From: Streptomyces sp. NBC_00433 | GTDB lineage: Bacteria; Actinomycetota; Actinomycetes; Streptomycetales; Streptomycetaceae | DNA length: 64,000 nt | Direction of reading: 5' to 3' | Assembly: GCA_036015235.1 (NCBI GenBank) | Contig: CP107926.1 | Coordinates: 3,166,001-3,230,000, forward strand | Shown: positions 14,257 to 32,149 of the stretch, in pieces | How positions within the stretch are numbered: the first letter of the stretch is position 1 | Layout: each line of letters opens with the position of its first letter | Position numbers and translations under genes: made by a program | The notes under the pieces: generated by a model | Databases searched by the model: none | Told to the model about the DNA's origin: nothing | Seen by the model: the letters and a program-made list of their open reading frames with translations, nothing else

Positions 14257-14317
14257 ACCTCGCATCCGCCTTCTGTGGGTAGAGATTTCCCCGAAGTCTC
14301 CCGACACGGTACGTCTT

Positions 14318-14360
14318 ATCGTTCCCCATTTAACTTGCGATCGACTTGGCGGCGGCTTGG
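14318..14360 (-). promoter_or_regulatory. SARP-type operator/promoter A (THN-synthase operon)
   Basis: On the minus strand CCAAG, CCAAG and GCAAG start at 14360, 14349 and 14338, exactly 11 bp apart. Eight bases after the third heptamer is AACGAT (14323-14318), a fair -10 hexamer. This is the geometry known for SARP activators: direct heptamers in 11-bp register with the last one 8 bp from -10. It points to the type III PKS gene, whose start is about 60 bases on. Confidence 0.75.
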
Positions 14361-14467
14361 CAGGGTACGGAAAGGCCCGCAGGATGGTGTCATCGCAGGT
14401 CACAGCCCTGACAGCAGGTATCTCACACCCTGTCGCGAGGCACTTCGATCATCGTTCGCGCATGCCG

Positions 14468-14522
14468 CCAAGCCGCCGCCAACTCACCGGACAGTCGGCA
14501 CGGGTTACCCGGCCCCGACTTA
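14468..14522 (+). promoter_or_regulatory. SARP-type operator B (ispH-fusion operon)
   Basis: On the plus strand CCAAG (14468), CCAAC (14479) and GACAG (14490) are spaced 11 bp, the same register as the other four sites. A fourth repeat and a convincing -10 are not seen at the conserved distance. The site faces the IspH-polyprenyl synthase gene at 14610 and is back to back with site A, so one 280-bp region serves both divergent operons. Confidence 0.65.
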
Positions 14523-14609: not shown

Positions 14610-16631
14610 ATGGCTACCACACTGGACAACGAGCGGCAATCGGGCGGCAAGAAGGTCATTCTGGCGGAGCCGCGCGGCTTCTGCGCCGGTGTGCGCAGGG
14701 CCATCGAGATCGTGGAGCGTGCTCTCGAACTGCACGGCGCCCCCGTCTACGTACGCAAGCAGATCGTGCACAACGAACACGTGGTGCGGGATCTGGAGGA
14801 GCGCGGCGCCAGGTTCGTCGACTCCGAGACCGAGGTGCCGGACGGGGCGGTGTGCATCTTCTCCGCGCACGGCGTGTCCCCGCAGGTGCGGGACAACGCC
14901 GCCGAGCGGGACCTCACCGTCATCGACGCCACCTGCCCGCTGGTCGCCAAGGTGCACCAGGAGGCCCGCAGATACGCCCGCGACGGGCGGACGCTGATCC
15001 TCGTCGGGCACGCCGACCACGAGGAGATCGAGGGCACCTTCGGCGAGGCGCCGGACCGTACGGTCATCGTGCAGGACGCCGAGGAGGCCAGGCGGCTCGA
15101 CCTGCCGCCGGGGGCACCGGTCAGCTATCTCACCCAGACCACGCTGTCGCTGGACGACACCGAGGAGATCGTGTCGATCCTCCAGGAGCGCTTCCCCGGA
15201 CTGACCGGGCCGGGCACCGACGACGTCTGCTACGCCAGCCAGAACCGGCAGAATTCCGTGAAGTCGATCGCCGGGCGCAGCGACCTGGTGCTGGTCGTCG
15301 GCTCGGCCAACTCCAGCAACTCCGTGCGGATGGTGGAGGTCGCCCAGGACGCCGGCACCCGGGCCCATCTGCTGCCCGACGCCGGGCACCTGGACCCCGC
15401 ATGGCTCGACGGCGTGGCCACCGTGGGCCTGAGCGCCGGGGCCAGCGCACCCGAGGTGCTGGTCGAGCAGGTCGTCGCGCGGCTCGCCGAACTGGGCTAC
15501 ACCGACACCGAGACCGAGGTCACCGCGACGGAAACCGTGGTCTTCCGGCCGCCGTTGGGCCTGGAGCCCGCTTCGCCGCGGCGCGCGGACACCCGCGACG
15601 CCGGCGCCGAACTGCTCGACCGGGTCAGCGCCAGGATTACGGATTTGCTGAACGCCGAGGCAGCGCAATGGGGTTCGGTCGACGCGCGGGCGGCGGTGCC
15701 GGTCGAGGCGGTCGGGGAGCTGGTCGCCGCGGGCGGCAAGCGGCTGCGCCCCACCTTCTGCGTCAGCGGCTACCTGGCGGCCGGCGGCACCCTCGACGAC
15801 ACGGCGGGCGCCGACGCGGTCGTCGCGGCGGCGGCGGGCCTGGAACTGCTGCACGCCCACGCCCTCATCCACGACGACGTGCTGGACAACTCCCCCACCC
15901 GGCGCGGCGTCCCGACGGTGCACGCCAAACACGCCGGAATCCACGCGGAGCTGGGCTGGACCGGCGAGGCGCGGCGGTACGGCGAAGGCGTCGCGATCCT
16001 CGCCGGCGACCTGGCCTTCGGCTACGCCCACCAACTGGCCGGCGGCCTGCCCGCGCAGGCCAGGGACATCTGGATGCGGCTGGGCACCGAGATGCTGGTC
16101 GGCCAGCACCTGGACATCGCGCTCGCCGCGGAGGCCGCGCCCGACCCGGCCCTGGCCCGCTGGATCGCGGTGTGCAAGTCCGGCCGCTACACCATCCACC
16201 GCCCGCTCTCGCTCGGCGCGTCCCTGGCGGGGCGGCCCGACCTGCAGGAGGCCTTCGAGGTGTACGGCCTCGCCGCCGGTGAGGCCTTCCAGTTGCGCGA
16301 CGACCTGCTGGACGCCTTCGGCGACGCGGCGGCGACCGGCAAGCCCGCCGGACTCGACGTCAGCGAGCACAAGATGAACCTGCTGCTGGCGCTGGCGGCC
16401 ACCGGCGACGCCGAGGTGGCCAGGCTGCTGGAGGCGGGCAGGCAGGGCGACTTCGACCCGGCCGGGCTGCGCGCCGCGCTGCTGGCCTCCGGGGTGCGCG
16501 AGGAGATCGAGAAGCGGATCGACGCGCTGGTGACGACCGCCCGCACCGCGCTCGACACGGCGCCGCTGGCGGACGGCTGGCGGGAGCGGCTGGGCGAGAT
16601 GGCCGCGCAGGTGGCCTACCGGGACCGCTGA
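14610..16631 (+). CDS. ispH: Fusion: HMBPP reductase IspH + polyprenyl diphosphate synthase
   Basis: A 673-aa two-domain enzyme. Residues about 15-325 are IspH, the [4Fe-4S] enzyme making IPP and DMAPP in the last MEP step: its three cluster cysteines are in GFCAGV (~25), DATCPLV (~109) and DVCYASQNRQ (~206), with the GSANSSNS substrate motif. Residues about 345-672 are a trans-prenyltransferase with both Asp-rich motifs, HDDVLD (~424) and RDDLLD (~563). The fusion would make IPP/DMAPP and couple them directly, presumably to geranyl diphosphate for the NphB-like enzyme. Ordinary IspH is about 310-330 aa. No clear Shine-Dalgarno precedes the ATG. It heads an operon with ispG under operator site B. 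Confidence 0.95.
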   Translation: MATTLDNERQSGGKKVILAEPRGFCAGVRRAIEIVERALELHGAPVYVRKQIVHNEHVVRDLEERGARFVDSETEVPDGAVCIFSAHGVSPQVRDNAAERDLTVIDATCPLVAKVHQEARRYARDGRTLILVGHADHEEIEGTFGEAPDRTVIVQDAEEARRLDLPPGAPVSYLTQTTLSLDDTEEIVSILQERFPGLTGPGTDDVCYASQNRQNSVKSIAGRSDLVLVVGSANSSNSVRMVEVAQDAGTRAHLLPDAGHLDPAWLDGVATVGLSAGASAPEVLVEQVVARLAELGYTDTETEVTATETVVFRPPLGLEPASPRRADTRDAGAELLDRVSARITDLLNAEAAQWGSVDARAAVPVEAVGELVAAGGKRLRPTFCVSGYLAAGGTLDDTAGADAVVAAAAGLELLHAHALIHDDVLDNSPTRRGVPTVHAKHAGIHAELGWTGEARRYGEGVAILAGDLAFGYAHQLAGGLPAQARDIWMRLGTEMLVGQHLDIALAAEAAPDPALARWIAVCKSGRYTIHRPLSLGASLAGRPDLQEAFEVYGLAAGEAFQLRDDLLDAFGDAAATGKPAGLDVSEHKMNLLLALAATGDAEVARLLEAGRQGDFDPAGLRAALLASGVREEIEKRIDALVTTARTALDTAPLADGWRERLGEMAAQVAYRDR

Positions 16632-18159: not shown

Positions 18160-19548
18160 CTATGGCGTGGTCAGGGAGAGGAGGAGCGGCTTGACCTCCG
18201 TGGCTTCGTAGTGGGCGCGCGCACCGCGAGGGTGGGAGCAGAGGAGCACCGGCCCGTCCTGCGGGTCAAGGGGCAGCCGCCCGTGCGTACCGCGCACGGC
18301 GGCCGCGCCCGCGTCGAGTCCGATGGCCGTCATCAGATAGCGCAAGCCCAGCTTCTTGCGGGCCAGCGCCACGCCGGCCCGGCGCTTGGCGGCGCCCGGC
18401 GCGGCCGGGTCGAAGAACAGCTCGGCCGGGTCGTAGCCGGGCTTGCGGTGGATTTCCACCAGGCGGGCGAAGTCGGGGGCGCGGGCGTCGTCGAGCCAGT
18501 AGTAGTAGGTGAACCAGGCGTCGGGTTCGGCGACCAGGACGAGGTCGCCGGCCCGCGGGTGGTCGAGGCCGAACGCCGCCTTCTCCGGCCCGCCGAGCAC
18601 CTCGGCCACGCCGGGCAGTTCGGCGCAGAGTTTGCGGACCAGGGGGAGGTCGGCCGGGTCGGGCACGTAGACGTGTGCGATCTGGTGGTCGGCGACGGCG
18701 AAGGCGCGGGACGTCCAGGGGTCGAGGTATTCCATGCCGGCCTGGGTGTGGACGCGCAGCAGGTTCTCGCGGCGCAGCAGGCGGTTGACGTCGACCGGGC
18801 GCTTCGCCTCGGTGATGCCGTATTCGGACAGCGCCACGACGGTGGCACCGCGGTCGCGCGCCAGGTCCAGGAGCGGGCCGAGCACCGCGTCCAGCTCGGC
18901 CGCCGCCGCGGCGGCCTGCGGGCCCGAGGGGCCGAATCGCTGGAGGTCGTAGTCGAGGTGCGGGACGTAGACCAGTGTCAGGTCGGGTTCGTGCCGCGCC
19001 ATGATCTGCTGGGCGGCGGCGCAGATCCATGCCGAGGACGGCAGCCCGGCGCCGGGGCCCCAGTAGCTGAAGAGCGGGAACGTGCCGAGTGCCGAGGTGA
19101 GTTCGTCGTGCAGCTCGGGCGGGTCGGTGTAGCAGTCGGGTTCCTTGCGGCCGTCGGCGTGGTAGATCGGGCGGGGGGTGACCGTCCAGTCGGTGTCGGC
19201 GCCCATCGCGTACCACCAGCAGATGTTGGCGACCGTGTAGCCGGGGTGCAGGCGGCGGGCGGCGTCCCAGAGCTTGTCGCCGCCCATGAGTCCGTTGTGC
19301 TGGCGCCACAGCAGGACTTCGCCGAGGTCGCGGAAATACCAGCCGTTGCCCACGATGCCGTGCTCGCGCGGCATCGCGCCGGTGAGGAGGGTGGCCTGCA
19401 CCGAGCAGGTGACGGCGGGCAGCACGGGGGTGAGCGCGGCCTGCCAGCCGGTGTCGGCGACGGCGGCGAGGCGCGGCATGTGCCGCAGCAGCCGCGGGGT
19501 GAGGCCGACGATGTCGAGGACGACGAGCGGGGTCGGCGGCGGGGTCAC
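18160..19548 (-). CDS. eboF: EboF-like alkaline phosphatase/nucleotide pyrophosphatase family protein
   Basis: A 462-aa member of the type I phosphodiesterase/nucleotide pyrophosphatase family. The metal and nucleophile region lies at the N-terminus: VVLDIVGLTPRLL followed by PAVTCSVQATLLTG, where the Thr of the VTC segment is the probable nucleophile; LVYVPHLDYDLQRFG and ALSEYGI supply further metal ligands. There is no signal peptide. In cyanobacteria eboF encodes such an enzyme and the ebo operon is needed to move a pigment precursor to the periplasm. Substrate here is unknown. GTG overlaps the EboE stop (GTGA); it is the last gene of the operon. Confidence 0.85.
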   Translation of the reverse strand: MTPPPTPLVVLDIVGLTPRLLRHMPRLAAVADTGWQAALTPVLPAVTCSVQATLLTGAMPREHGIVGNGWYFRDLGEVLLWRQHNGLMGGDKLWDAARRLHPGYTVANICWWYAMGADTDWTVTPRPIYHADGRKEPDCYTDPPELHDELTSALGTFPLFSYWGPGAGLPSSAWICAAAQQIMARHEPDLTLVYVPHLDYDLQRFGPSGPQAAAAAAELDAVLGPLLDLARDRGATVVALSEYGITEAKRPVDVNRLLRRENLLRVHTQAGMEYLDPWTSRAFAVADHQIAHVYVPDPADLPLVRKLCAELPGVAEVLGGPEKAAFGLDHPRAGDLVLVAEPDAWFTYYYWLDDARAPDFARLVEIHRKPGYDPAELFFDPAAPGAAKRRAGVALARKKLGLRYLMTAIGLDAGAAAVRGTHGRLPLDPQDGPVLLCSHPRGARAHYEATEVKPLLLSLTTP

Positions 19549-20714
19549 CGGGTCATCTCCCTCACGGGTCGGTCGTGCAGGCCCAGGGCGAGCAGTTCGC
19601 CGCGGGTGAAGGCCAGTTCGGCCGCGATGCCCTCGGCCAGCTCCGCGGGCCCGGTGGGGCGCCGGTCGGGCGGCAGGACGTTCCAGGTGTACGTCTCCAC
19701 CTCCAGGTGGTCGCACACGGCCTGCTCGCCGCCGACGAGTTCGGCGAGCGCGGCGCGCAGCACGTCGACGGTGGAGCGCAGCGGCGGCTGCGGGTCGGCG
19801 TGCAGCGGCACGTGGTAGTGGACCCGCCAGGGTCCCGGGAGGCCCGCGTCGAGTGCCTCGGGGAGGTCGTCGGCGGCGGGACCGGCGGCCGAGCGGGTCT
19901 GGTGCAGGAAGCGCGGCTCGGCGTACGAGCGCAGCGCCGCGGCGGTGGCCGGGTCCTGCGGGTGCTCGGCGGCGAGGGCCGCGGACACCTGGACCTTGAC
20001 CACGGGCAGGCCGGCCGCCGCCAGCCGGGCGAGCGCGTCGGCGGGTTCCTCCCAGGCGCAGGCCAGATGGGCCAGGTCCAGGCACACCCCGAGGTAGCGG
20101 GTGTCGACGCCGGCCAGTCCCGCGGCGACCTGCTCGGTGGTCTCCAGGACGCAGCCGGGTTCCGCCTCGAAGCCGACCCTGACCAGCCGGCCGGTCCGCT
20201 CGTGCACGGCGGCGAGCCGGTCGGCGAGTTCGGCGAGCCGCCGCCGCGCCGCGGCCTGGTCCGCGCCGGTCCAGGGGGTGCGCCAGGCGAGCGGCAGGGT
20301 GGAGACCGAGCCGCGGGCGGCGTCGTCGGGGAGCAGCCCGGCGAGCACCAGGGCCAGGTCGGCGGTGTAGTCCAGCCGTGCGTCGGTGAGCCAGTCGGGT
20401 CGGTAGACGGCGTGCTTCACGACCGGGGCGTGGAAGGCCCGGTAGGGGAAGCCGTTGCAGGTGACGACGTCGAGGCCGCGCAGGTCCAGGTCGTGCCGCA
20501 GCCGGGCCACCGCGCGCGGGTTGGCGGCGAGTCGGGCGGCGACGGGGGCGGTCAGCCACAGGCCGACGCCGAGCCGGTCGGCGCCGAGCAGCTTCCTGGC
20601 GGGGACCGCGTAGGTGTCCAACTGGGCGATGATCTCGGGGAGTTCCTCGCCCGCGTGCACGTTGGTGCAGTAGCCGAGGTGGACGGTCTGCCCGTCGCGG
20701 TGCCGCAGCCGCAT
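19545..20714 (-). CDS. eboE: EboE-like metabolite traffic protein (TIM-barrel)
   Basis: A 389-aa TIM-barrel protein of the xylose-isomerase/AP-endonuclease superfamily. It starts MRLRHRDGQTVHLGYCTNVH, the characteristic opening of the EboE family, and carries the metal-site-like segments FEAEPGCVLE and GVCLDLAHLACAWE. Position between eboF and eboB and the TGATG one-base overlap with eboB support the assignment. In Nostoc the ebo genes act in export of a scytonemin monomer; the chemistry of EboE itself is unknown. Confidence 0.88.
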   Translation of the reverse strand: MRLRHRDGQTVHLGYCTNVHAGEELPEIIAQLDTYAVPARKLLGADRLGVGLWLTAPVAARLAANPRAVARLRHDLDLRGLDVVTCNGFPYRAFHAPVVKHAVYRPDWLTDARLDYTADLALVLAGLLPDDAARGSVSTLPLAWRTPWTGADQAAARRRLAELADRLAAVHERTGRLVRVGFEAEPGCVLETTEQVAAGLAGVDTRYLGVCLDLAHLACAWEEPADALARLAAAGLPVVKVQVSAALAAEHPQDPATAAALRSYAEPRFLHQTRSAAGPAADDLPEALDAGLPGPWRVHYHVPLHADPQPPLRSTVDVLRAALAELVGGEQAVCDHLEVETYTWNVLPPDRRPTGPAELAEGIAAELAFTRGELLALGLHDRPVREMTR

Positions 20715-21565
20715 CAGCTGCCCCCGCGGGCCAGGGTGTTGCCGGCGAAGGCCGCGGGCTGCTCCTGCGCCGGGGACAGGTCGAGCCGGCCGGACTGGCC
20801 GTAGAAGTCGGCGGGATTGCGCCACAGCACCCGGTCCACGTCGTCCTCGGTGAAGCCGGCCGCCAGCATGGCGTGCCCGGTGGCGAGCGTCAGCAGCGGG
20901 TCGCTGCGGCCCCAGTCGGCCGCGGAGTTGACGAGGATGCGCTCAGGACCGTACTCGCGCAGCACCGCGGCCATCCGGTCGGGCGACATCTTGGTGCCGG
21001 GGTAGATGGAGAAGCCCATCCAGCAGCCGCTGCCGGCCACCGAGCCGACCGTCACCTCGTTGAGGTGGTCCACGACGACATGCGCCGGGTCGATGCCGGA
21101 CTCCTTGACGACGTCCAGGGTGCGCAGGGTGCCGCGCTGCTTGTCGCGGTGCGGGGTGTGCACCAGCGCGGGCAGTTCGTGCGCCACGGCCAGGGCGAGT
21201 TGGGCGGCGAAGACCTCGTCCTCCCGCGGGGTCATGGAGTCGTAGCCGAGTTCGCCCACCGCGACGACGCCGTCCTTGGCCAGGTAGCGGGGCAGCAGGC
21301 CGAGCACCTCGCGGCAGCGCGGGTCGTTGGCCTCCTTGGGGTTCAGGCCGATGGCGCAGTGGTGCCGGATGCCGAACTGGGCGGCACGGTAGGGCTCCCA
21401 GCCGATCAGCGCGTCGAAGTAGTCGGTGAAGGAGCCGGCGTTGGTGCGCGGCTGGCCGAGCCAGAAGGCCGGTTCGACCAGTGCTCTGACGCCGGCGGCG
21501 GCCATCCGCTCGTAGTCGTCGGTGGTCCGTGAGGTCATGTGGATGTGCGGGTCGAAGATGCGCAT
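20714..21565 (-). CDS. eboB: EboB-like TatD-family metal-dependent hydrolase
   Basis: A 283-aa TatD-like amidohydrolase. It begins MRIFDPHIHMTSRTTDDYE, giving the HxH metal pair at residues 7-9; further ligands appear in VGELGYDS (Glu), LVHTPHRDKQRG (His), VVVDHLNE (His) and NSAADWGRSDP (Asp). Start and stop overlap neighbours as TGATG. It matches the EboB position of ebo clusters. The substrate is not known. Confidence 0.88.
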   Translation of the reverse strand: MRIFDPHIHMTSRTTDDYERMAAAGVRALVEPAFWLGQPRTNAGSFTDYFDALIGWEPYRAAQFGIRHHCAIGLNPKEANDPRCREVLGLLPRYLAKDGVVAVGELGYDSMTPREDEVFAAQLALAVAHELPALVHTPHRDKQRGTLRTLDVVKESGIDPAHVVVDHLNEVTVGSVAGSGCWMGFSIYPGTKMSPDRMAAVLREYGPERILVNSAADWGRSDPLLTLATGHAMLAAGFTEDDVDRVLWRNPADFYGQSGRLDLSPAQEQPAAFAGNTLARGGS

Positions 21566-22242
21566 CAGCCTGCCTTCCCCTCGCGTTCGTCCTGCCGGTC
21601 CGCCGTGTCGCCGCCGCGCGGCAGGTCGCCGATGAGCGCCAGCAGGACGTCGGCGTCCTCGGGCATCGACCGTCCCGCGGCGTGCCGCTCGGCGGCCAGG
21701 TCGGCGAGCATGCGGCCGAGTTCGCCGTCGGCCCGCCGGTCCAGGTCGGCGACCGCGGTCAGCGGGATGTCCATGAAGACGCACTTGAGCACGGCCTGCC
21801 GCCACATCGCGTCGTCGAGGTGGCGGGCGTAGGGCCCGACGGCGGCGGCGACCAGCCGGGTGTCGTTGGTACGGATCGCGTCGTGCAGGATCTCCGCGCA
21901 GGCCGCCCCGAGGTCCAGCAGCGGCAGGGCGCGCAGGACGGCACGCTTCTCGTCGGCGCTGCCGTAGCGGTAGAGGGCGTCCACCTGCGCGGCCAGCGCG
22001 GGCCCGCGCAGCGGCAGCGCGGTCAGCAGCAGGACGCGGGCCGCGTCGTCCACGGTCCACCCCGCCTTGCCCTCCGGGGAGTCGGACCCGGGCAGCGGCC
22101 CGCGTCCGCAGCGGCGGCCCGCCGCGGGGAAGAGCACGCCGACCGCGTCCGGGTCCCGCGCCACCCGGTCCACCGCGTCGGCCAGCCACCCCGGGTCGGC
22201 GACCCGCCCTTCGAGCACCTCCGCGAGCTGCCCGCCGGTCAT
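21565..22242 (-). CDS. eboA: EboA domain-containing protein
   Basis: A 225-aa helical protein with the EboA-type core LYRYGSADEKRAVLRALPLL and AEILHDAIRTNDTRLVAAA, followed by a segment FMDIPLTAVADLDRRAD. No catalytic motif is visible. EboA is the namesake of the operon and its biochemical role is unknown. The ATG overlaps the stop of the TIM-barrel gene (ATGA). Confidence 0.88.
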   Translation of the reverse strand: MTGGQLAEVLEGRVADPGWLADAVDRVARDPDAVGVLFPAAGRRCGRGPLPGSDSPEGKAGWTVDDAARVLLLTALPLRGPALAAQVDALYRYGSADEKRAVLRALPLLDLGAACAEILHDAIRTNDTRLVAAAVGPYARHLDDAMWRQAVLKCVFMDIPLTAVADLDRRADGELGRMLADLAAERHAAGRSMPEDADVLLALIGDLPRGGDTADRQDEREGKAG

Positions 22243-23132
22243 CGCCCGACCTCCTCGGCGCCACGCCGGCCGCCTGCCGCCTGGGCTTGGCGGGGTCCGG
22301 CCGAGGCGAGTGCCGCCGCGAGGAAGGCCAGGGACGACCGCGCCACCTCGGGTGCGGCGTGGGAGTGGCGGGGTAGTTCCACCGCGGTCAGGCCGGTGTA
22401 TCCGGTGGAGGCGAGCGCGGCCAGGGCCGCGGGGAAGTCGACCTCGCCCCGGCCGAATTCCAGGTGCTCGTGGACGTCGCGGACCATGTCGTCGATCTGG
22501 ACGTTGACCAGGTGCGGGCCCGCCTTGGCGACGCATTCCGCGACCGGCCACGGCTCGATGCAGCGGCAGTGGCCGATGTCGAGGGTGAGGCCGAAGCAGT
22601 CGGGGCCGCCGAGCCTGGCGTGCAGGGTGAACCAGTCGTCGATGGTCTGCACGAGCATGCCGGGTTCGGGTTCGAAGCCGAGCCGCACCCCGGCGGCGTC
22701 CGCGACGGCCGCGGCCTCGTCGCAGCCCCGTAGGAGCCGGTCCCACGCGGCGGGGGCCGGCAGCGCGGCGGGGCGTATCCCGGCCCAGAAGGAGACGGCC
22801 TCGGCCCCCAGGTCGGCGCCGACGCGGATCGCCCGGCGCAGGAAGTCCAGCCGCGGGCCGGGCTCGTCGTCCAGCAGGGTCGGCGCGTGCTTGCGCCACG
22901 GGTCGAGCAGGTAGCGGGCGCCGGTCTCGATGACGACGGCGAGCCCGAGCCGGTCGAGCCGGGCCGCCAGCGCGGCCGTCCTGCGGGGCAGGTCGGGGCC
23001 GAAGGGGTCGAGGTGCTGGTGGTCCAGGGTCAGCGCGACGCCCTCGTAGCCCAGGTCGGCGATGACGGCGAGCGCGTCTTCGAGGCGGTGGTTGGCGAAG
23101 CCGTTGGTGCCGTAGCCGAAGCGGACGCTCAC
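22239..23132 (-). CDS. Xylose-isomerase-like TIM-barrel sugar phosphate isomerase/epimerase
   Basis: A 297-aa protein of the AP-endonuclease-2/xylose-isomerase superfamily. Metal-ligand candidates are LGFEPEPGML (Glu), FGLTLDIGHCRC (Asp/His), VQIDDMV and EFGRGEVDF (Glu). It is shorter than, and distinct from, the EboE-like protein two genes on, so the operon has two TIM-barrel proteins. GTG start overlaps the UbiA stop. An isomerase or epimerase acting on a cyclitol or sugar phosphate is a reasonable guess given the adjacent inositol-phosphate synthase. Confidence 0.82.
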   Translation of the reverse strand: MSVRFGYGTNGFANHRLEDALAVIADLGYEGVALTLDHQHLDPFGPDLPRRTAALAARLDRLGLAVVIETGARYLLDPWRKHAPTLLDDEPGPRLDFLRRAIRVGADLGAEAVSFWAGIRPAALPAPAAWDRLLRGCDEAAAVADAAGVRLGFEPEPGMLVQTIDDWFTLHARLGGPDCFGLTLDIGHCRCIEPWPVAECVAKAGPHLVNVQIDDMVRDVHEHLEFGRGEVDFPAALAALASTGYTGLTAVELPRHSHAAPEVARSSLAFLAAALASAGPRQAQAAGGRRGAEEVGR

Positions 23133-24001
23133 GTCGGGGACACCTTCCTGGCCAGGGCCCGGCCGAGCGGGGCGCATACGGCGACGAGCGCGGCCGGCAG
23201 CGGTCCCGCCGACCGGGCGATCAGCGAGCCCTGGAGCGCGGGCAGTCCGGTGATCCCGGCGCCGACCGCGGCCCGGACATGACCCGCGTCCGGCGTGGCG
23301 ACGGCCCGCGCCTGCGGCGCCCCGTAACCGGCGGCATACCATCCGGCGAGGCCGCGGGCCGGCCACGTCCGCTGCGGCTGGGCGGGCGCGGCCGGGAGCT
23401 CGGCGGCGGCGAGCGCGATGCCCGCGGTGCCGGCCAGTGTCGCGGCGGGCAGCAGGCGGCCGCCGCCGGTGACCTCGCGGCGGGACAGGGCGGTCACCGT
23501 ATAGGTGTGCGCGGCGATAGTGAGCGCGGGCAGCACCGCGGGCCGCCACCTGCCGGGGCGGGTGGTCGCGCCGAGCAGCACGTCGAGCCCGCGGCAGGCG
23601 GCCATCGCGGCGGGACCCGCGGGGGTGCCCTTCAGCTTGAGGTCGTACGCCCACACCGCCGCCGTCAGCGGGACCGCCACGGCGAGCGCGCGCGGGCCGC
23701 CGGTGAGCCAGGCGAGGGTGAGGCCCGCGGCGCTGAGGCCGGCCGCGACGCCCAGCGCGGCGGCGGCCGGCACGCGGCCGGACGGGATCGGCCGCTCGGG
23801 GCGCTCCTTGGCGTCCAACTCGCGGTCGGCCCAGTCGTTGGCGGCCATGCCCGACCAGTACAGGCACACGGCCGACGCGGACAGCCCGACGGTCCTGGCC
23901 CCGAGCCCGCCGGCCGCCGCGGCCCCCGCGACGGCGTCGCCGGGCACGGACAGGGCGGCGGGGGCCCTGACCAGCTCGGCGAGGTCCCGCAGCCCGGTCA
24001 T
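23129..24001 (-). CDS. eboC: EboC-like UbiA-family membrane prenyltransferase
   Basis: A 290-aa polytopic membrane protein of the UbiA family, which joins prenyl diphosphates to small acceptors in the membrane. The first Asp motif reads NDWADRELDAKERPERPIPS (near residue 55) and the second YDLKLKG (near residue 119). About eight hydrophobic segments follow. In ebo clusters this is EboC. A lipid carrier role, attaching a cyclitol or sugar phosphate to a polyprenyl anchor, has been speculated for the family; nothing in the sequence names the substrate. Confidence 0.88.
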   Translation of the reverse strand: MTGLRDLAELVRAPAALSVPGDAVAGAAAAGGLGARTVGLSASAVCLYWSGMAANDWADRELDAKERPERPIPSGRVPAAAALGVAAGLSAAGLTLAWLTGGPRALAVAVPLTAAVWAYDLKLKGTPAGPAAMAACRGLDVLLGATTRPGRWRPAVLPALTIAAHTYTVTALSRREVTGGGRLLPAATLAGTAGIALAAAELPAAPAQPQRTWPARGLAGWYAAGYGAPQARAVATPDAGHVRAAVGAGITGLPALQGSLIARSAGPLPAALVAVCAPLGRALARKVSPT

Positions 24002-25236
24002 CGCCCGCCCCCGGACCCGGCGCCCAGCCCGCCCCCGGACCCGGCGCCCAGCCCGGCACCGGACCCGGCACCCGGCGCGCCGCCGGACCCGGCGCTGGAA
24101 CCCGCACCCAGCCCCGCCACGTACGCCCGCAGCGCGGCCCACTGGGCGTGCAGCGCGTGGTCCACGTCGCCGAGCGGGTCCTTGAAGAAGTAGGCCAGCG
24201 CCTCCAGCGGGCCGCTTCGGCCCGCTTCCTGTGCGGCCAGGGTGATCCTGGCCAGGTCGAGCACCAGGGGGGCGGCGAGGGCCGAGTCGCAGCCCTGCCA
24301 GGTGAATTGCAGGCACATGCCGGTGCCGAGGAAGCCCTCGAAGGTGATCAGGTCCCAGGCGGTCTTGAAGTCGCCGATGTCGGCCACGTAGTCGATACGG
24401 GTGTCGCCGGCGGGCGCGTAGCCGAGGGTCTCGCGCAGCACCCGCTGCTTGCTGACCGACTTGGCGGCGTTCGCGCCCGGGTCCACGAGGTTGGCGCCGT
24501 CGCCGCCGCCGAGCAGGTTGACGCCGGACCAGGAGCGGACGGCGAGGTTGCGCATCGCGAACATCGGGGCGAGCACCGACTTCAGCAGCGTCTCGCCGGT
24601 CTTGCCGTCGTGTCCGGCGTAGGGCAGGCCGCGCCGGGCGGCGAGTTCGGCCAGCGCGGGCAGCCGGGCCCCGGTGGAGGGGGTGAAGTCGACGTAGGGG
24701 CAGTCCGCGGAGAAGGCCGCGTAGGCGTAGAGCGAGCTGGGCGGCAGCACACTGCCCGGCGCGTCCAAAGCTTCGGTGAGGGAGGCGAGTTCGGCGTGGG
24801 CGGGGTGCGGCGGGGCGGCGGCCTCGGTGGAGGCGACGTTGACGACGACGACCCGGTCGAGGCGGTGGCGGGCGCGGAATTCGGTGAGGTCGCGGGCGAC
24901 GGCCGCGGCGGTCAGGCCCTGCGTGGCGCCCTCGGGGGCGTGCCGCAGGTCGGCGTCGACCGCGTCGAGGTCCGCGGCCAGGGCCTGGACCAGCCGGGCC
25001 GGCACGACTCCGGCGGCGGCGAGCTGCTCGGCCTTCTTGACCAGCGGGCCGGTGGCCAGGTCGTGGCCGCCGAAGTAGAGGTCGCCGAAGCCGGGCAGGG
25101 CAGCGCTGTCGAGTTCGGGGTGGGCGGTCACGCAGCCCACGGGTTCCGTCAGCCCGGCGCGCAGCGCGAGCGCGCCGACCACGCTGGTGGTGGCGACGGA
25201 TCCGCGGGCGCCGATGAACCAGATGCCAGCACGCAC
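23998..25236 (-). CDS. ino1: Inositol-3-phosphate synthase family protein
   Basis: A 412-aa NAD-dependent sugar phosphate cyclase that would turn glucose 6-phosphate into inositol phosphate. Seen: the N-terminal NAD loop FIGARGSVATT, the VVVNVASTEA segment, GHDGKTGETLLKS (near residue 210) and the GGGDGANL and DYVADIGDFKTAWD signatures. The last 38 residues are a Gly-Ala-Ser repeat tail that is probably not part of the fold. GTG start with CGGAGGAC ribosome site. It sits where known ebo clusters have the 3-dehydroquinate-synthase-like eboD, so it may provide an equivalent cyclisation step. Confidence 0.9.
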   Translation of the reverse strand: MRAGIWFIGARGSVATTSVVGALALRAGLTEPVGCVTAHPELDSAALPGFGDLYFGGHDLATGPLVKKAEQLAAAGVVPARLVQALAADLDAVDADLRHAPEGATQGLTAAAVARDLTEFRARHRLDRVVVVNVASTEAAAPPHPAHAELASLTEALDAPGSVLPPSSLYAYAAFSADCPYVDFTPSTGARLPALAELAARRGLPYAGHDGKTGETLLKSVLAPMFAMRNLAVRSWSGVNLLGGGDGANLVDPGANAAKSVSKQRVLRETLGYAPAGDTRIDYVADIGDFKTAWDLITFEGFLGTGMCLQFTWQGCDSALAAPLVLDLARITLAAQEAGRSGPLEALAYFFKDPLGDVDHALHAQWAALRAYVAGLGAGSSAGSGGAPGAGSGAGLGAGSGGGLGAGSGGGR

Positions 25237-25300
25237 GTTCTTGTCCTCCGATCACGAACACAGCGGGCACAGCGGACACAGCGAACCGATCTGCGGGGCT

Positions 25301-25344
25301 CCCGTCGCGGGCCGCGGGCCCGAGGGCGCGCCTCCCGCGACGGG
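25301..25344 (-). other. Inverted repeat between ScyD/E-like gene and ino1
   Basis: Perfect 11-bp arms CCCGTCGCGGG (25301-25311) and complement (25334-25344) with a 22-nt loop, in the 126-bp gap after the ScyD/E-like stop. It could lower read-through from the secreted-protein gene into the ebo genes. A short tandem ACAGCGGAC-type repeat (25258-25283) lies next to it. Confidence 0.5.
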
Positions 25345-25362
25345 GTGACCTGGCGGGCGGGG

Positions 25363-26553
25363 TCAGCCGATCCTGACGATCTCCCCGTCGTGCGCGGTGA
25401 CGTCCGAGGCGGTGGTGCAGGCCGGGGCGTCGTCGCAGGCGGGCCACATCATGGTCTTGTTGGCGACGTAGATGGAGCCGTCGCGGCCGGCGAGGAAGCC
25501 GGTGGGCGCGAAGAGCTTGCCCGCCGCGAGGACGGTCCGCTCGTTGGTGCGGTGGTTGATCTGGACGACGTCGCCGATCGGGTCGCCGGTCGGCAGGAAG
25601 CCGGTGGTGTCGAACTCGGTGACGTAGAAGTCGCCGTTGGCGCCGAAGCCGCAGCCGCTGATGGCGCTGAAGCCGCTCTGCCAGACCGCCAGCTTCCCGT
25701 TGTGCGGGTTGTACTTGTAGACCTTGGCCTCGGTGGACGAGCTGGGCTTGCCGGTGATCTCACCGACGTAGACCGAGTCGTCGGGGCCGACGGCGACGCA
25801 GGACGGTACGGCGTCGACTCCGGTCGAGGTCTTGGGGATGAACGCGAGGATGTGGACGTTGCCCCGTCGGTCCACCGAGTCGAGGACGTTGGACGCCGCG
25901 TCGACGAGGTAGAAGCCGCCGCCGGGCTTGGTGGTCAGCGCGTACGGATTGGACTCGGGATAGCTGGTGCCCTGGTCCTTGTGCGCGTTCGTCCACTCGT
26001 AGTCGACGTAGCCGGGGTTCGCGACGGCCTTCACGGAGTGGCCGCTGACCTTGAGCAGGGCGCCGTACTGCGTGACGAGCGCCGCCTTCAGGTCGGCGGG
26101 GATCGTGTCCGGGGTCTGCTGCGCGGAGCCGGTCTCCAGGACGTAGAGGTGGCCGTCGGAGTAGGCCAGGCCGTTGGCGCCGACCACCTCCTCCTGGTTG
26201 AAGTTCGACGCCAGGCCGTCCACGATCCGCACCGGGGTGCCGGAGGAGACGTCGGCGAGGGACCCGGTGAAGCCGAAGCACCGGGTGGGGAAGCCGGTGC
26301 CGACACAGGTCGGCGGTGTCTCGCCGACCTCGGAGACGATGAGGTGTCCGCGCGGCCCCCAGACCAGGCTCCGCGGCGAGTTCAGGCCGCTCGCCACGAC
26401 GGTGACCGGCGCGTTTCCGGTCAGATGGGCGGGATGGGCGGGACGGGCGGCCGCCTGGGCCTCCTGCCCCGACGGTCCTGCGCCCACGCCGACGAGCGCT
26501 GTCGCCGCCGCCACGCCGGCGAACAGCAACCGGCTCGTTTTGAGACGCCACAT
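25363..26553 (-). CDS. Secreted ScyD/ScyE-family beta-propeller protein
   Basis: A 396-aa exported protein. The N-terminus MWRLKTSRLLFAGVAAATAL is a Sec signal with cleavage likely after AQA near residue 34. The rest repeats an NHL/SMP-30-like blade pattern (GLNSPRSLVWGPRGHLIVSE, NGLAYSDGHLYVLE, SCVAVGPDDSVYVGE and similar), as in the ScyD/ScyE family named after two scytonemin-cluster proteins of cyanobacteria. Its function is unknown. Four cysteines near the ends may form disulfides. It is first in line behind operator C and upstream of the ebo genes on the same strand. Confidence 0.88.
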   Translation of the reverse strand: MWRLKTSRLLFAGVAAATALVGVGAGPSGQEAQAAARPAHPAHLTGNAPVTVVASGLNSPRSLVWGPRGHLIVSEVGETPPTCVGTGFPTRCFGFTGSLADVSSGTPVRIVDGLASNFNQEEVVGANGLAYSDGHLYVLETGSAQQTPDTIPADLKAALVTQYGALLKVSGHSVKAVANPGYVDYEWTNAHKDQGTSYPESNPYALTTKPGGGFYLVDAASNVLDSVDRRGNVHILAFIPKTSTGVDAVPSCVAVGPDDSVYVGEITGKPSSSTEAKVYKYNPHNGKLAVWQSGFSAISGCGFGANGDFYVTEFDTTGFLPTGDPIGDVVQINHRTNERTVLAAGKLFAPTGFLAGRDGSIYVANKTMMWPACDDAPACTTASDVTAHDGEIVRIG

Positions 26554-26715
26554 CTTGGCCTCATCTCCTCCGGGTTCGGATGATCTGGGTGGTCCTGCGG
26601 CACGTGGTCCTGCGGCACGTGACCTCCGTGGCCGCGCGTGACCCCGTGCACGCCGAGTCGCGCGGAAAACCCCGTCACCGTGGTGATCGGCCGTTTCCCG
26701 CTGCTCCGGGCGCCT

Positions 26716-26770
26716 CAGCATTGATCAAGCCGCTTGGTCCGCACTGTTGGGCAACTTGGCTCCGACTTGG
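26716..26770 (-). promoter_or_regulatory. SARP-type operator/promoter C (ScyD/E-ebo operon)
   Basis: Minus strand, reading from 26770: CCAAG, CCAAG, AACAG, CCAAG at positions 0, 11, 22 and 33, then AATGCT at 48-53. The gap between the last heptamer and this -10-like hexamer is exactly 8 bp. The two other complete sites, D and E, share the register and the hexamer (A/G)ATGCTG. It lies 163 bases before the ScyD/E-like start. Confidence 0.78.
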
Positions 26771-26843: not shown

Positions 26844-28376
26844 TCAGGAGTGCGCCTTTTCGGCCGGTGCCGCGGGCTTGGCCGCGGGCCCGAAGGCGGG
26901 CGCGGGCAGCGGGCCGCTGCGCAGCAGGGCGGCGCAGACGACCGCGCCGACCCCGAAGATGGCGGTGCACCACCAGAAGACGGTGCTGTAGCCGTGGATC
27001 GTCGCGAGGTGGATCTGCGCGGCGGCGGGTTTGCCGTGCACGTGGCTGCTCAGGTAGTCGCCGGCGGAGCTGGCCGCGATCGTGTTGAGCAGCGCGGTGC
27101 CGATCGCGCCGCCGAGCTGCTGCCCGGTGCTGATGGACGCCGAGGCGATGCCCGCGTCGTGCGGCGCGACGCCTGCCGTGCCGGTACGCAGGGCCGCCGC
27201 GTAGATCAGGCCCATGCCGAGGCCGATCACCATGGTCGGGCCGAGCAGGGCCCCGGCGTAACCCGAGTCGGGGCCGATCCTGGTCAGCCAGGCCATGCCG
27301 CCCGCGTTGAGCAGCATGCCGACGCCGATCAGCGGGCGCGGGCCGACCTTCGGCATCACCATGATGTTGCCGACGTTGGTCGCGACGGCGGTGACCACGA
27401 CCATCGGCAGCAGGGCGACGCCGGAGGTGATGGCCGAGTAGCCGAGGTCGGTCTGCATGTAGTAGATGAGGAAGAGCAGGACGCCGAAGGCGCCGACGCC
27501 GACGATCAGCGCGGTCAGGTAGGCGCCGCCGCGGTTGCGGTCAAGGACGACGCGGGGCGGCAGCAGCGGGTGCGGGGCGCGGGTCTGCCAGAAGGTGAAG
27601 ATCAGCAGCAGGACGCCGCCGGTCGCCAGGACGCCCCAGGTGGTGGCCGCGTGCCAGCTGTGGGTGGCGGCGTTGGAGAAGCCGTAGACCAGGCAGAACA
27701 TCCCGGCGGAGGCCACGATCACGCCGGGGACGTCCATCTTGGCGCCGGTCCTGGGCTGCCTGGGCAGCAGCGTGAGGCCGCCGATCAGCGAGAAGGCGGC
27801 GAAGACCAGGTTGACGTACATGCACCAGCGCCAGTTGAGGCCGGAGGTCAGCGCGCCGCCGAGCAGCAGGCCGAGGCCGCCGCCGCTGGCCGCGACCGCG
27901 CTGAAGACGCCGAAGGCCTTGCCGCGCTCCTTGGGGTCGGTGAAGGTCGTGGACAGCAGCGACAGGGCGGTCGGCGCCAGCAGGGCGGCGAAGACGCCCT
28001 GGCAGGCGCGGGCGGCCACCAGCATGCCGAAGCTGTTCGCGGCGCCGCCGACGGCGGAGGAGAGCGCGAAGCCGCTCAGCCCGATGAGGAAGGTCTCCTT
28101 GCGGCCGACCAGGTCGGCCAGCCGCCCGCAGAAGAGCAGCAGGCTGCCGAAGCACAGGGCGTAGGCGGTCAGGATCCACTGCTTGTCGGCGTTCGAGAAG
28201 TGCAGGGCGTCCTGGGCCGACGGCAGCGCGAGGTTCATCACCGTCACGTCGAGGGTGATCATCAGATAGGCGGTGCATATGACGGTGAGGATCAGCCACC
28301 GCCGGGAATCGCCGGCCGCTGACCCGGCCGCCCCCGCACCCGGTCCGGCCGCGGGGGCGGCGCTCCGTGCTGACAT
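26844..28376 (-). CDS. DHA2-type MFS drug/metabolite exporter (14 TM)
   Basis: A 510-aa EmrB/QacA-type proton antiporter with about 14 hydrophobic helices. Visible family signatures are the DVTVMNLALPSAQ segment of helix 1, GRLADLVGRKETFLIG (motif A) near residue 80 and the helix 5 motif with GLGLLLGG near residue 155. Start has an AGGAG ribosome site 7 bases upstream. It lies 98 bases after the FAD monooxygenase on the same strand, so both probably come from operator D. Likely role: export of, and self-resistance to, the cluster product. Confidence 0.92.
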   Translation of the reverse strand: MSARSAAPAAGPGAGAAGSAAGDSRRWLILTVICTAYLMITLDVTVMNLALPSAQDALHFSNADKQWILTAYALCFGSLLLFCGRLADLVGRKETFLIGLSGFALSSAVGGAANSFGMLVAARACQGVFAALLAPTALSLLSTTFTDPKERGKAFGVFSAVAASGGGLGLLLGGALTSGLNWRWCMYVNLVFAAFSLIGGLTLLPRQPRTGAKMDVPGVIVASAGMFCLVYGFSNAATHSWHAATTWGVLATGGVLLLIFTFWQTRAPHPLLPPRVVLDRNRGGAYLTALIVGVGAFGVLLFLIYYMQTDLGYSAITSGVALLPMVVVTAVATNVGNIMVMPKVGPRPLIGVGMLLNAGGMAWLTRIGPDSGYAGALLGPTMVIGLGMGLIYAAALRTGTAGVAPHDAGIASASISTGQQLGGAIGTALLNTIAASSAGDYLSSHVHGKPAAAQIHLATIHGYSTVFWWCTAIFGVGAVVCAALLRSGPLPAPAFGPAAKPAAPAEKAHS

Positions 28377-28474: not shown

Positions 28475-30259
28475 TCATTCGGCGGCTTCGTGGTCCAGCA
28501 GGTACGAGAGCGCCTGGCCCAGGTCGTCCGCGGGGGTGTCGGCCGCGCCCATGGAGCGCCAGGCCACGTGGTTGTCGGGCCGTACGAGGACGGCGCCCGC
28601 GTCGCTGATCTCCCGTACGGCCGCCCAGCCGCCGTCGGTGTCGGCGTAGTCCGCCCCGTCCGCGGAAGTGCCGATGAGGGCGGTGGTGATCGGGATCGCG
28701 AACTTCTCCGCGACCTGCGCGGCCGCCTCGCACCAGGGGGCGCCCTCGGGGCCGGTGATGAGGGCGAAGCCGGTCCCGGAGCCCGTCAGGTCGTGGGTCG
28801 ACAGGCGGCGGCCCCCGTGCTCGATCCAGGCGTGCGCCAGCAGGTGCCCGGGACGGGTGGTGGGGCGGTAGGTGTCGCCCATCGGCGAGCGGGCGGGCGG
28901 CGGGGTGCCGTCGGGCAGGACGGCGCCGTCCTCGTAGGCGAAGCCGATCTCCAGGTCGTGCGCCTGGCATTCGGCGCGGTGCGTGGCGAATATCTCCGCC
29001 GCCCGCGCCCTGACGACGTCGCCGACCGGTGACGGGTCGAAGTACGAGGTGAAGGCCGACGGCCGGCGCTGCGGCGGGATGTGCGCGCCCAGGCCCACCG
29101 CGGCCTCGGTCATCAGCCGGTGGTGGAACCAGGTGGACAGCCCCCACTCGACATTGCGCCGGCCCAGCGGGCGCCGCTCCGCCTCGTAGGTGTCGAGCAG
29201 GCTGTCGTGCGCGCGGCCCGAGACGACGGCGGCGAGCTTCCAGGCGAGGTTGTGCACGTCCTGGATGCCGCCGTTCAGGCCGAGGCCGGTGGTGGGCGGC
29301 TGGCGGTGCGCGGCGTCGCCGACGATCAGCACCCGGCCGTCGCGGTAGCGGTCGGCGAGCACGCCCTCGACGCTCCAGTGCGACACCTTGTGCAACGTCA
29401 GGTCCAGGTCCGGCAGGCCGAGGACCTCGCGGATCCTGGCGGTGACGGCCGGGTGGTCGGCGCGGTCGGCGCCGCCGGGCGCGAAGTGCAGGCCCCACTC
29501 CTCGCAGTCCCTGCCCCAGCTGGGGCCCATCTCCAGCAGCGTGCTCGACAGGTCGGGGCGGTAGGGGTTGAGGAACCAGGTGATGATCGTGCCCTCGTGC
29601 CACCAGCGCGACAGGTCGGCGGAGAAGTACGCGGTGGTGACGTCGGCCATCGCGGACACGCCCTCCATCCGGACGCCCAGCGCGGGGCCGAGGGTGCGGC
29701 CGCCGTCGGCCGCGATGACGTAGCGCGCGACGACCGTGGTGGTCCCGCCGGTCGCGGTGTCGCGGATCTCGGCGACGACGCGGCCGGCGCCGGCGTCCTC
29801 GGTGAAGGACACCAGCTCGCTGCCTAATCGCACCCGGCCCGGATTGCGCCGCTCGGCCTGGGCGCGCAGGATCGGTTCGAGGCGCAGCTGCGGCAGCTTG
29901 ATGGGCAGGACGGGGCCGGCCGCCGCGTAGGTCCCGGTGAGCGCGCCGCCGCCGAAGGCGTCCATCTCGTGGATGACCCGCCGGTCCAGGGGCCCGTCGC
30001 CGGTGAGGGTGGTCTGCCAGCGGACCCGGCCGAATTTCTCCGGCGGCGCCGCCCGCTCGACGACCGCCTCGTGGAGGCCGTGCTGGCGGAAGATCTCCAT
30101 CGTGCGCTGGTTGAGATAGTGCGCCTTCGGCAGCTTCGACGTGTCCGAGTGCCTTTCCACCAGCAGGTGGTCGACCCCGTGGTCGGACAGGAAGACGGAC
30201 GCGGACAGCCCGCATCCGCCGCCGCCGACGATCAGGACCGGAACCTCGATAGCCGCCAT
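28475..30259 (-). CDS. PheA/TfdB-type FAD-dependent aromatic monooxygenase
   Basis: A 594-aa flavoprotein of the aromatic hydroxylase class. The FAD motifs are GGGGCGLSAS (~13-22), the DG motif AADGGRTLG (~180) and the GD motif VGDAAHRQPPTTGLGLNGG (~310); the C-terminal 180 residues form the thioredoxin-like domain of this class. It would hydroxylate or oxidise a phenol/naphthol, for example THN or flaviolin derivatives. Codon 145 is TTA (plus-strand 29825-29827), so translation should depend on the bldA tRNA. Expressed from operator D with the exporter. Substrate is inferred from context. Confidence 0.92.
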   Translation of the reverse strand: MAAIEVPVLIVGGGGCGLSASVFLSDHGVDHLLVERHSDTSKLPKAHYLNQRTMEIFRQHGLHEAVVERAAPPEKFGRVRWQTTLTGDGPLDRRVIHEMDAFGGGALTGTYAAAGPVLPIKLPQLRLEPILRAQAERRNPGRVRLGSELVSFTEDAGAGRVVAEIRDTATGGTTTVVARYVIAADGGRTLGPALGVRMEGVSAMADVTTAYFSADLSRWWHEGTIITWFLNPYRPDLSSTLLEMGPSWGRDCEEWGLHFAPGGADRADHPAVTARIREVLGLPDLDLTLHKVSHWSVEGVLADRYRDGRVLIVGDAAHRQPPTTGLGLNGGIQDVHNLAWKLAAVVSGRAHDSLLDTYEAERRPLGRRNVEWGLSTWFHHRLMTEAAVGLGAHIPPQRRPSAFTSYFDPSPVGDVVRARAAEIFATHRAECQAHDLEIGFAYEDGAVLPDGTPPPARSPMGDTYRPTTRPGHLLAHAWIEHGGRRLSTHDLTGSGTGFALITGPEGAPWCEAAAQVAEKFAIPITTALIGTSADGADYADTDGGWAAVREISDAGAVLVRPDNHVAWRSMGAADTPADDLGQALSYLLDHEAAE

Positions 30260-30387: not shown

Positions 30388-30442
30388 CAGCATCGGCCGC
30401 GGGAGTTGGGCGGCACTGGTCGGCGGGTTGGCGCCGGCTTGG
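30388..30442 (-). promoter_or_regulatory. SARP-type operator/promoter D (monooxygenase-exporter operon)
   Basis: Minus strand from 30442: CCAAG, CCAAC, ACCAG, CCAAC at positions 0, 11, 22 and 33, then GATGCT at 48-53, 8 bp after the last heptamer. Same register as sites C and E. It points away from the SARP gene and into the FAD monooxygenase, 129 bases from its start. Confidence 0.78.
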
Positions 30443-30502: not shown

Positions 30503-31564
30503 TCAGGCCGACTTGGCGATCACCCGCGGATGCGGGCGCCAGTCCAGGGCCGGGGCGTGGTTCAGTATCTCGTTCTCCAGGTGCTGGAGCGCCGGTCTGG
30601 GGTCGATGCCCAGCTCCTCCGCCAGCCGCTTCTGGTTGGTCCGCAGCACCCCCAGCGCGTCGGCCTGCCGGCCGGCCCGGTAGAGCGCCAGGCTCAGCAG
30701 CTCGCAGCCGTATTCGCGCAAGGGGTGGGCCCGGGTGAAGGCCTCCAGCTCCGCCACCGCCATCTCGTGGGCGCCGACGGCCAGCAGCGCGGCGCAGCGC
30801 CCCTCGACCACGGAGAGCCGCAGCTCTTCGAGCCGGGCCACGTCCGGCCGCACATAGGTGGTGTCGGCGACCTCCGCGTAGGCCTGCCCGCGCCACAGGG
30901 CGAGGCCCGCCTCGAACTCCCGCACCGCCTGCTGCGGTTCGCCCCAGTCCAGCGCCTGCCAGCCGGCGGTGGCGCGCTCGCTGAAGCGGTGGACGTCGAC
31001 CTCGACGACCCGGCTGTCCAGCAGGTAGCCGCGGCCGTAGGTCCGTAACACCGACGCCGGGGTCCGCGGGGCGCGGCCGGGTTCGAGCACCCGCCGCAGA
31101 TTGGCCACATAGGCCTGCAGCGAGGTGATCGCCGACGGCGGCGGCTTCCCGGTCCACAGCTCCTCGACGATCATGTCGACGGCCACCGGCTGGCCCACCT
31201 TGCTGACCAGCAGCGCAAGGAGTGCCCGCTGCTTGGGCGCCCCGGGGTCCACCAGGCGGCCGCCGACGACCGCTTCGATCGGGCCGAGCGCCCGGAACTC
31301 GGCCATGGGTTGCGGGCTTCTGTCGCTCACCACACGGGGCGGGGGCGCTGGTGTGAGGTCGACGTCCGTCCCGGAACCGAAATGCTCTTTCAAGAACTCG
31401 TTGGTGCGCCGCAGCTCCCACACTTCGCGTTCCAGCTCCGCGATGCGGCGCGCGTCCACGCTGCCGGTATCTGAGGACCGCCCGTCATCGGTCTGCGAAG
31501 GGCGGCCGCCGGCTAACTCGGCGCCGATGACAGGGGTATTCCCGTGGATTTCCTCGTTCGCCAT
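30503..31564 (-). CDS. SARP-family activator with transposase-like coiled-coil N-terminus
   Basis: A 353-aa Streptomyces antibiotic regulatory protein. Residues about 88-180 are the winged-helix DNA-binding domain (FRALGPIEAVVGGRLVDPGA ... LRTYGRGYLLD) and 185-340 the BTAD domain. Ahead of this is an unusual ~85-residue extension whose RRIAELEREVWELRRTNEFL (39-58) reads like the leucine zipper of IS3-family OrfA transposases. Codons 17 and 173 are TTA (plus 31514-31516, 31046-31048), so production should need bldA. ATG 31564 has GGGAG 8 bases upstream. It is the obvious candidate to bind the five CCAAG-repeat sites. Confidence 0.92.
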   Translation of the reverse strand: MANEEIHGNTPVIGAELAGGRPSQTDDGRSSDTGSVDARRIAELEREVWELRRTNEFLKEHFGSGTDVDLTPAPPPRVVSDRSPQPMAEFRALGPIEAVVGGRLVDPGAPKQRALLALLVSKVGQPVAVDMIVEELWTGKPPPSAITSLQAYVANLRRVLEPGRAPRTPASVLRTYGRGYLLDSRVVEVDVHRFSERATAGWQALDWGEPQQAVREFEAGLALWRGQAYAEVADTTYVRPDVARLEELRLSVVEGRCAALLAVGAHEMAVAELEAFTRAHPLREYGCELLSLALYRAGRQADALGVLRTNQKRLAEELGIDPRPALQHLENEILNHAPALDWRPHPRVIAKSA

Positions 31565-32073: not shown

Positions 32074-32149
32074 TGCGGCTCGGTGACGGCAATATGTTGC
32101 CCCCGGCGCTGGGTTGACGGTATTTCACCGGCGCCAGGAGTGTAGCCGT

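Follow-up and report, generated by a model that had tools for sequence, protein, structure and literature searches.

The window analysed here is a stretch of 64,000 nucleotides from Streptomyces sp. NBC_00433 (contig CP107926.1, positions 3,166,001 to 3,230,000), which sits within a complete chromosome of 8.99 Mb. It was found that an ebo-type operon headed by a gene for a ScyD/ScyE-family protein lies inside a gene cluster of the RppA/NphB meroterpenoid type, behind an operator that recurs before genes of the pathway. It is very likely that this scyD-ino1-ebo operon is a co-regulated functional part of the pathway. A first-pass annotation of the window had described eight same-strand genes overlapping almost throughout, and this was borne out. 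All eight are on the minus strand, between 26553 and 18160, and neighbouring genes overlap at six of seven junctions (by 4, 4, 4, 1, 1, and 4 bp), the sole gap being the 126 bp between scyD and ino1. The genes of the operon are as follows.

25363..26553, minus strand: ScyD/ScyE-family beta-propeller protein, probably secreted, 396 amino acids (NF033206 ScyE_fam, 242 bits against a cut-off of 80, full length; NHL)
23998..25236, minus strand: Ino1, archaeal-type myo-inositol-1-phosphate synthase (PF07994/PF01658; best structure 1u1i, E 4.5e-67)
23129..24001, minus strand: EboC-type UbiA prenyltransferase of the SCO3242 family (NF045897, 366 bits against a cut-off of 260)
22239..23132, minus strand: xylose-isomerase-like TIM barrel, not EboE (PF01261)
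21565..22242, minus strand: EboA-domain protein with an all-alpha repeat fold (NF035938, 164 bits against a cut-off of 50)
20714..21565, minus strand: EboB, TatD-like metal-dependent hydrolase (PF01026, 48 bits)
19545..20714, minus strand: EboE TIM barrel (NF035939, 413 bits against a cut-off of 250)
18160..19548, minus strand: EboF, type I phosphodiesterase/nucleotide pyrophosphatase family (PF01663, 214 bits)

The order and the names given to these genes at first pass were right, with two refinements. Since the operon has no gene for EboD, the 3-dehydroquinate (DHQ) synthase-family sugar-phosphate cyclase of canonical ebo operons, and has Ino1 in its place, it was classed as an ebo variant and not as a canonical eboABCDEF operon. 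The UbiA protein scores under the cut-off of the EboC equivalog NF035940 (126 bits vs 250) and is a member of the sister family NF045897; its NDxxDxxxD motif and R137 are invariant, and D140 is nearly so. The EboA protein is under the cut-off of the narrower family NF035937 (81 bits vs 320). Its predicted model is an all-helical repeat (pLDDT 92), and a fold search with it gave no match below E 1e-3 and no close relative in the PDB. Ino1 retains the equivalents of K274, K278, K306, D332, and K367 of the A. fulgidus enzyme, which I take to be the catalytic residues. ScyD has a signal-peptide-like N-terminus (MWRLKTSRLLFAGVAAATALVG...AQAA), whose positive, hydrophobic, and AQA-A segments were judged by eye and are conserved, and its start codon and ribosome binding site are kept in relatives. 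The predicted ScyD model (pLDDT 76, pTM 0.79) resembles six-bladed propellers; its structural neighbours are SMP30-type lactonases, strictosidine synthase, and pyrroloquinoline quinone (PQQ) sugar dehydrogenase, and they include 3das, a PQQ-bound aldose dehydrogenase of S. coelicolor.

Judged by its gene content, the surrounding cluster is a naphterpin/furaquinocin-like meroterpenoid cluster supplied by its own genes of the 2-C-methyl-D-erythritol 4-phosphate (MEP) pathway. Both marks of an RppA/NphB cluster, a 1,3,6,8-tetrahydroxynaphthalene (THN) synthase and an NphB-type prenyltransferase, are present, and further cluster genes encode a DegT-type aminotransferase and a methyltransferase.

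13153..14403, minus strand: THN synthase, RppA-type III polyketide synthase (PKS) (best structure 1u0m, E 4e-172, presumably the S. coelicolor THN synthase)
14610..16631, plus strand: IspH fused to a polyprenyl diphosphate synthase (PPS), one open reading frame (ORF) of 673 amino acids
16734..17891, plus strand: IspG
26844..28376, minus strand: MFS efflux transporter, DHA2/EmrB type (PF07690; TIGR00711 slightly under cut-off)
28475..30259, minus strand: aromatic flavin adenine dinucleotide (FAD) monooxygenase (PF01494)
30503..31702, minus strand: SARP-family regulator, presumed operator binder (AfsR/SARP matches)
32114..34108, plus strand: DXS, isoprenoid supply (TIGR00204, 595 bits)
34146..35075, plus strand: NphB-type ABBA aromatic prenyltransferase (best structures 7fhb and 1zb6, E ~1e-149; 1zb6, E 2.7e-149, is presumably NphB)

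The fusion of the last MEP step with prenyl elongation (14610-16631) is unusual and is kept in relatives. Between the convergent ends of ispG and eboF (17958-18160), there are three repeats of 32-50 nt containing GCGGGGAACTGCGCG.

The operator follows the pattern CCAAG-N5-GCCAA-N9-CAGT and was found at five places in the window.

26743..26770, minus strand: upstream of scyD, CCAAGTCGGAGCCAAGTTGCCCAACAGT, exact, with a further CCAAG at +33
14333..14360, minus strand: THN synthase copy, one mismatch, 11-bp repeats at 0, 11, and 22, kept in relatives
14468..14495, plus strand: facing ispH-PPS and ispG, exact
30415..30442, minus strand: FAD monooxygenase/MFS transcription unit, exact
34063..34090, plus strand: nphB copy, within the 3′ end of dxs, exact

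The first-pass annotation had the operator of scyD shared with the THN synthase, the monooxygenase, and the prenyltransferase. The sharing is exact for scyD, the monooxygenase, and nphB (and also for ispH-PPS/ispG), but the THN synthase copy has one mismatch. Because this copy falls inside the longest ORF, the ORF listed for the THN synthase (13153-14403) is probably overlong and its real start lies downstream of 14333. The whole genome has four exact sites, all inside the cluster. Chance is ruled out as the source of the sites, since the window has five matches at two mismatches or fewer against 0.22 expected from shuffles, and reversed-pattern controls gave at most two per genome. Exact sites are present in 8 of the 395 Streptomycetaceae genomes; those outside this cluster are few, and the ones inspected adjoin SARP, RppA, or NphB paralogues. 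In SARP promoters, direct repeats are spaced by 11 or 22 bp and the 3′ repeat lies 8 bp from the -10 element (PMC10936776). The putative sites show this repeat spacing. The scyD promoter has a -10-like AATGCT 8 bp past the heptamer at +33, and a cross-genome alignment shows that nearly every row of scyD, the monooxygenase, and nphB has the repeated CCAAG at 0, 11, and 33 and RATGCT at 48-53, with drift in the spacer bases. From this architecture, I infer that the SARP of the cluster controls the operator-led units.

Is the link between ebo and the meroterpenoid genes conserved? The cluster was found in nine genomes, namely six of Actinacidiphila (the genus to which the genome of the window is assigned, with Actinacidiphila paucisporea among the relatives) and three of Streptomyces (Act143, NK08204, and G328), with two gene orders. 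The operator stands ahead of scyD in all nine; the G328 copy departs from the pattern at one position. The scyD-ebo cassette of NK08204, far from the ends of its 95 kb contig, still has the exact operator although RppA and NphB are found on different contigs. In a tree of EboB, EboE, EboF, and the TIM barrel, the sampled operator-led operons form one clade with a support of 1.0, and purifying selection acts on all eight operon genes (dN/dS 0.09-0.47). As read from these sequences, the scyD-ino1-ebo arrangement is maintained by selection. The lineage was seen only together with the operator and the meroterpenoid genes; no ebo site of this lineage lacking the pathway was found among the genomes compared, and no operator was found at the other ebo operons examined in the genus, most of which also have no ScyE-family gene. 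The contrary case named at first pass, an ebo operon conserved at this site without meroterpenoid genes and without co-regulation, does not hold, because the operator-led operon is conserved with the pathway while other ebo operons of the genus have no operator. The assignment of ebo to the meroterpenoid regulon is upheld by the conserved SARP-type operator before scyD in the nine genomes and by the recurrence of the pairing.

This recurrence extends to other aromatic clusters. In G013 and G002, a different meroterpenoid cluster (NphB 43-44% identical) is joined to an ebo operon from a separate branch of the tree, with an ispH gene ahead of ino1 and a ScyE-family gene after eboF; the RppA gene (79%) is on the same contig as the NphB cluster in G013 and on another contig in G002. 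The co-occurrence of ebo with rppA-nphB, suggested earlier as a check, was found in the nine-genome cluster and again in the G013/G002 lineage. In G126 (L196/L203), a ScyE-family gene heads ino1-ebo within a type II polyketide cluster containing a ketosynthase (KS) pair, an acyl carrier protein, a ketoreductase, and several FAD monooxygenases. Strong full-length ScyE-family genes were found at 34 loci in the 395 genomes, and 16 of the 34 are within 30 kb of an NphB-type gene against 0.41 expected, a count in which related genomes are not independent and which comes to about five distinct settings. Among the EboE matches listed, at least 9 of the 34 are within 30 kb of EboE, and G328 and G184 are additional. 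The contrast with ebo loci lacking a ScyE-family gene (7/12 vs 2/88) is a guide and not a test, because the KS query (the type I PKS of the window) was weak and most flanks of the ScyE-less loci are about 10 kb. These sequence comparisons indicate that at least two separate ebo lineages have joined ScyE-family genes and aromatic clusters.

The scyE-ebo locus of G184 was left uncounted as an aromatic-cluster case; a KS pair is nearby, but its sequence does not mark it clearly as type II. The genome of the window has two more NphB-type loci, at 4.500-4.537 Mb (L034/L191) and 5.620-5.660 Mb (L035/L036), both with operator near-matches. One lacks ebo and has a paralogue of the ScyE family (57% to ScyD); the other carries genes for an FAD monooxygenase (67%) and for SARPs (67% and 80%). 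Beside the cluster in the window, there is a gene pair for the large and small subunits of a NiFe hydrogenase (5047-8113), which is the same neighbour in A. paucisporea. The genes at 41283-47548, encoding an MmpL3-like RND transporter, a WbuX-like amidotransferase, and a type I PKS, probably form a separate gene cluster.

What might the operon do? In Nostoc, every ebo deletion traps the scytonemin monomer in the cytoplasm, whereas ScyE is periplasmic and the scyE mutant does not retain the monomer in the cytoplasm (PMC6282210). A cyclitol-lipid carrier was suggested for the Nostoc ebo genes (PMC6282210), and a hybrid isoprenoid-cyclitol as the ebo product (PMC5133447). Taken as a whole, the reading that I favour by a little is that of an export-and-finish module under the SARP activator of the cluster. 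Ino1 would supply inositol phosphate instead of the cyclitol of EboD, EboC would couple it to an isoprenyl diphosphate, and the TIM barrel, EboE, EboB, and EboF may trim or isomerise the product, with EboA as a scaffold for the enzymes. That the Ebo proteins make a prenylated cyclitol is evenly balanced. This small membrane factor, acting in trans, would help a phenolic or naphthoquinol intermediate to the outer face of the membrane, where the secreted ScyD-like propeller might carry out a late, probably oxidative, step, as proposed for ScyE in scytonemin. Export and extracytoplasmic assembly are suggested by the Nostoc precedent, the signal-peptide-like N-terminus, and the predicted beta-propeller fold of ScyD; export for finishing by ScyD is held tentatively, at somewhat less than even. 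The swap of EboD for another maker of a cyclitol phosphate, the isoprenoid genes adjoining ebo in several lineages, and the intact EboC motif fit an isoprenoid-cyclitol product, and for this reason export with late processing by ScyD is favoured.

Several observations weigh against the export-and-finish reading or against a version of it in which the ebo genes are dedicated to the cluster. Streptomycetes are monoderm and have no outer-membrane periplasm. The cluster encodes an MFS exporter, which could suffice, and the identity between ScyD and the ScyE-family proteins of G013 and G002 is as low as 27-31%. EboE is present in 198 of the 395 Streptomycetaceae genomes, mostly without such clusters. 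G012 has RppA and NphB but neither EboE nor an ebo-type Ino1, and G276 has an RppA/NphB cluster without ebo inside. G030 has cleanly lost eboC-eboF from its meroterpenoid cluster, retaining scyD-ino1 under the operator, and its remaining ebo core, at 0.6 Mb, has no operator; therefore, co-regulation of the core is dispensable. The loci compared below suggest an ebo product shared in trans and not specific to the cluster.

A second ebo operon in the genome of the window lies apart from the cluster, at 0.61 Mb (607-613 kb; L032/L033). At the syntenic second site in G011 (L186) and G005 (L188), where DNA identity is about 87-94%, eboC-eboF are gone and ino1 remains, and the meroterpenoid clusters of both genomes are complete, that of G005 spanning a contig break. 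Conversely, the second site of G030 (L046/L063) lacks ino1 only, and this genome has exactly one ebo-type Ino1 left. G025 and the genome of the window (G000) have two full ebo sets each. Each of these genomes keeps at least one core and at least one Ino1, which suggests that Ino1 belongs to the pathway and that the core acts in trans.

Ordinary ebo operons were also compared, using 80 neighbourhoods retrieved by EboC. Most of them have the order Ino1-EboC-TIM-EboA-B-E-F, while Streptomyces L110, L133, and L151-L154 showed no ino1. They often adjoin sugar-oxidation genes and not aromatic clusters, a further point on the unfavourable side. Frequent neighbours (L086-L162, Micromonosporaceae and others) encode a secreted glucose/sorbosone dehydrogenase (GSDH), ThuA, and a 3-keto-disaccharide hydrolase; others are genes for a sugar ABC transporter and for an enzyme like levoglucosan dehydrogenase. 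The gene downstream of eboF in Micromonosporaceae is often one for a polyprenyl synthase-like protein. SCO3242-3244 of S. coelicolor is presumably an ebo operon beside the cluster of the calcium-dependent antibiotic (CDA). These secreted GSDH propellers, ThuA, sugar transporters, and levoglucosan-dehydrogenase-like enzymes lend themselves to the main rival to transport, in which ebo yields a membrane redox cofactor, or quinone-like prenyl-cyclitol, for secreted beta-propeller oxidoreductases (ScyD/ScyE here, glucose/sorbosone dehydrogenases elsewhere) and not a transport carrier. The resemblance of the ScyD model to the PQQ-bound 3das is consistent with this, as both settings would pair ebo with a secreted propeller. 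However, the difference between the ebo and scyE mutants of Nostoc in holding the monomer fits transport better (PMC6282210), and ScyE-family genes are also found with no ebo nearby; I consider the cofactor role unlikely. A broader reading, which is rather doubtful, is that an ebo prenyl-cyclitol membrane factor, whether carrier or redox cofactor, serves secreted beta-propeller enzymes generally: ScyD/ScyE-type in aromatic pathways and glucose/sorbosone-type in sugar oxidation. EboD and Ino1 would then be unrelated, interchangeable sources of the head group, and different loci within a genome would share the product in trans.

The Ebo enzymes might instead tailor the meroterpenoid, with EboC adding a second prenyl or with an inositol unit joined to the naphthoquinone. 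The EboC homologue Ubi-297 farnesylates quinoline acids in vitro (PMC9235831, in which an ebo region of Saccharomonospora is also noted), and the position of ebo inside the cluster under common operator control would suit such a role. It is quite improbable, given that the core is interchangeable with an unlinked copy outside such clusters, that the same enzymes accompany clusters with quite different products, and that the ebo mutants of Nostoc accumulate a single unmodified monomer (PMC6282210). Least probable is that scyD alone is the operator-led pathway gene with a generally useful housekeeping ebo operon fused behind it: the operator stands ahead of scyD only, half of the genomes have ebo irrespective of the cluster, in Actinacidiphila species a second NphB gene is accompanied by a ScyE-family gene and no ebo, and G030 dropped the core, but the cassette of NK08204 is intact and operator-led though unlinked from the rest of the cluster, separate ebo lineages made the same association, and G030 kept the ino1 next to scyD while losing the other.

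The export-and-finish reading remains the preferred one. Ebo proteins occur across bacteria and algae, and the operon matters because a regulon defined by its sequence links ebo to a naphthoquinone pathway of streptomycetes, in which genes are routinely deleted and metabolites analysed; this makes ebo testable in an easy host. The reciprocal loss of ebo core and Ino1 is a natural complementation test. Since the pairing turns up with aromatic polyketide clusters of both type III and type II, some late antibiotic steps may take place outside the membrane. In the open-access literature, most subscription papers being outside the scope, no report was found that places ebo in a meroterpenoid cluster, describes Ino1 as a substitute for EboD, or puts ebo under the control of a SARP.

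Among known systems, the ebo and scyE genes of scytonemin biosynthesis in Nostoc punctiforme (PMC6282210) resemble the operon in combining EboA, EboB, a UbiA-type EboC, EboE, and EboF with a ScyE-family protein, periplasmic in Nostoc and probably secreted here, and very likely in being co-regulated with an aromatic pathway. In contrast, the host here is a monoderm actinomycete, Ino1 stands for EboD, there is an extra TIM barrel, scyD is at the head of the operon, the control is probably of SARP type, and the substrate would be a THN-derived meroterpenoid and not an indole-phenol; the core of the cluster is RppA/NphB and not scyA, scyB, and scyC. The actinobacterial SCO3242-type operons (NF045897) have the same order of Ino1-EboC-TIM-EboA-B-E-F in most cases, but they have neither the operator nor ScyD at the head, and sugar-oxidation genes are neighbours of many of them. 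Naphterpin/furaquinocin-type RppA-NphB clusters have in common with the window the THN synthase, the DegT aminotransferase, the methyltransferase, the NphB-type prenyltransferase, and the FAD monooxygenase, while the window adds in-cluster MEP-pathway genes and the embedded ScyD-ebo module.

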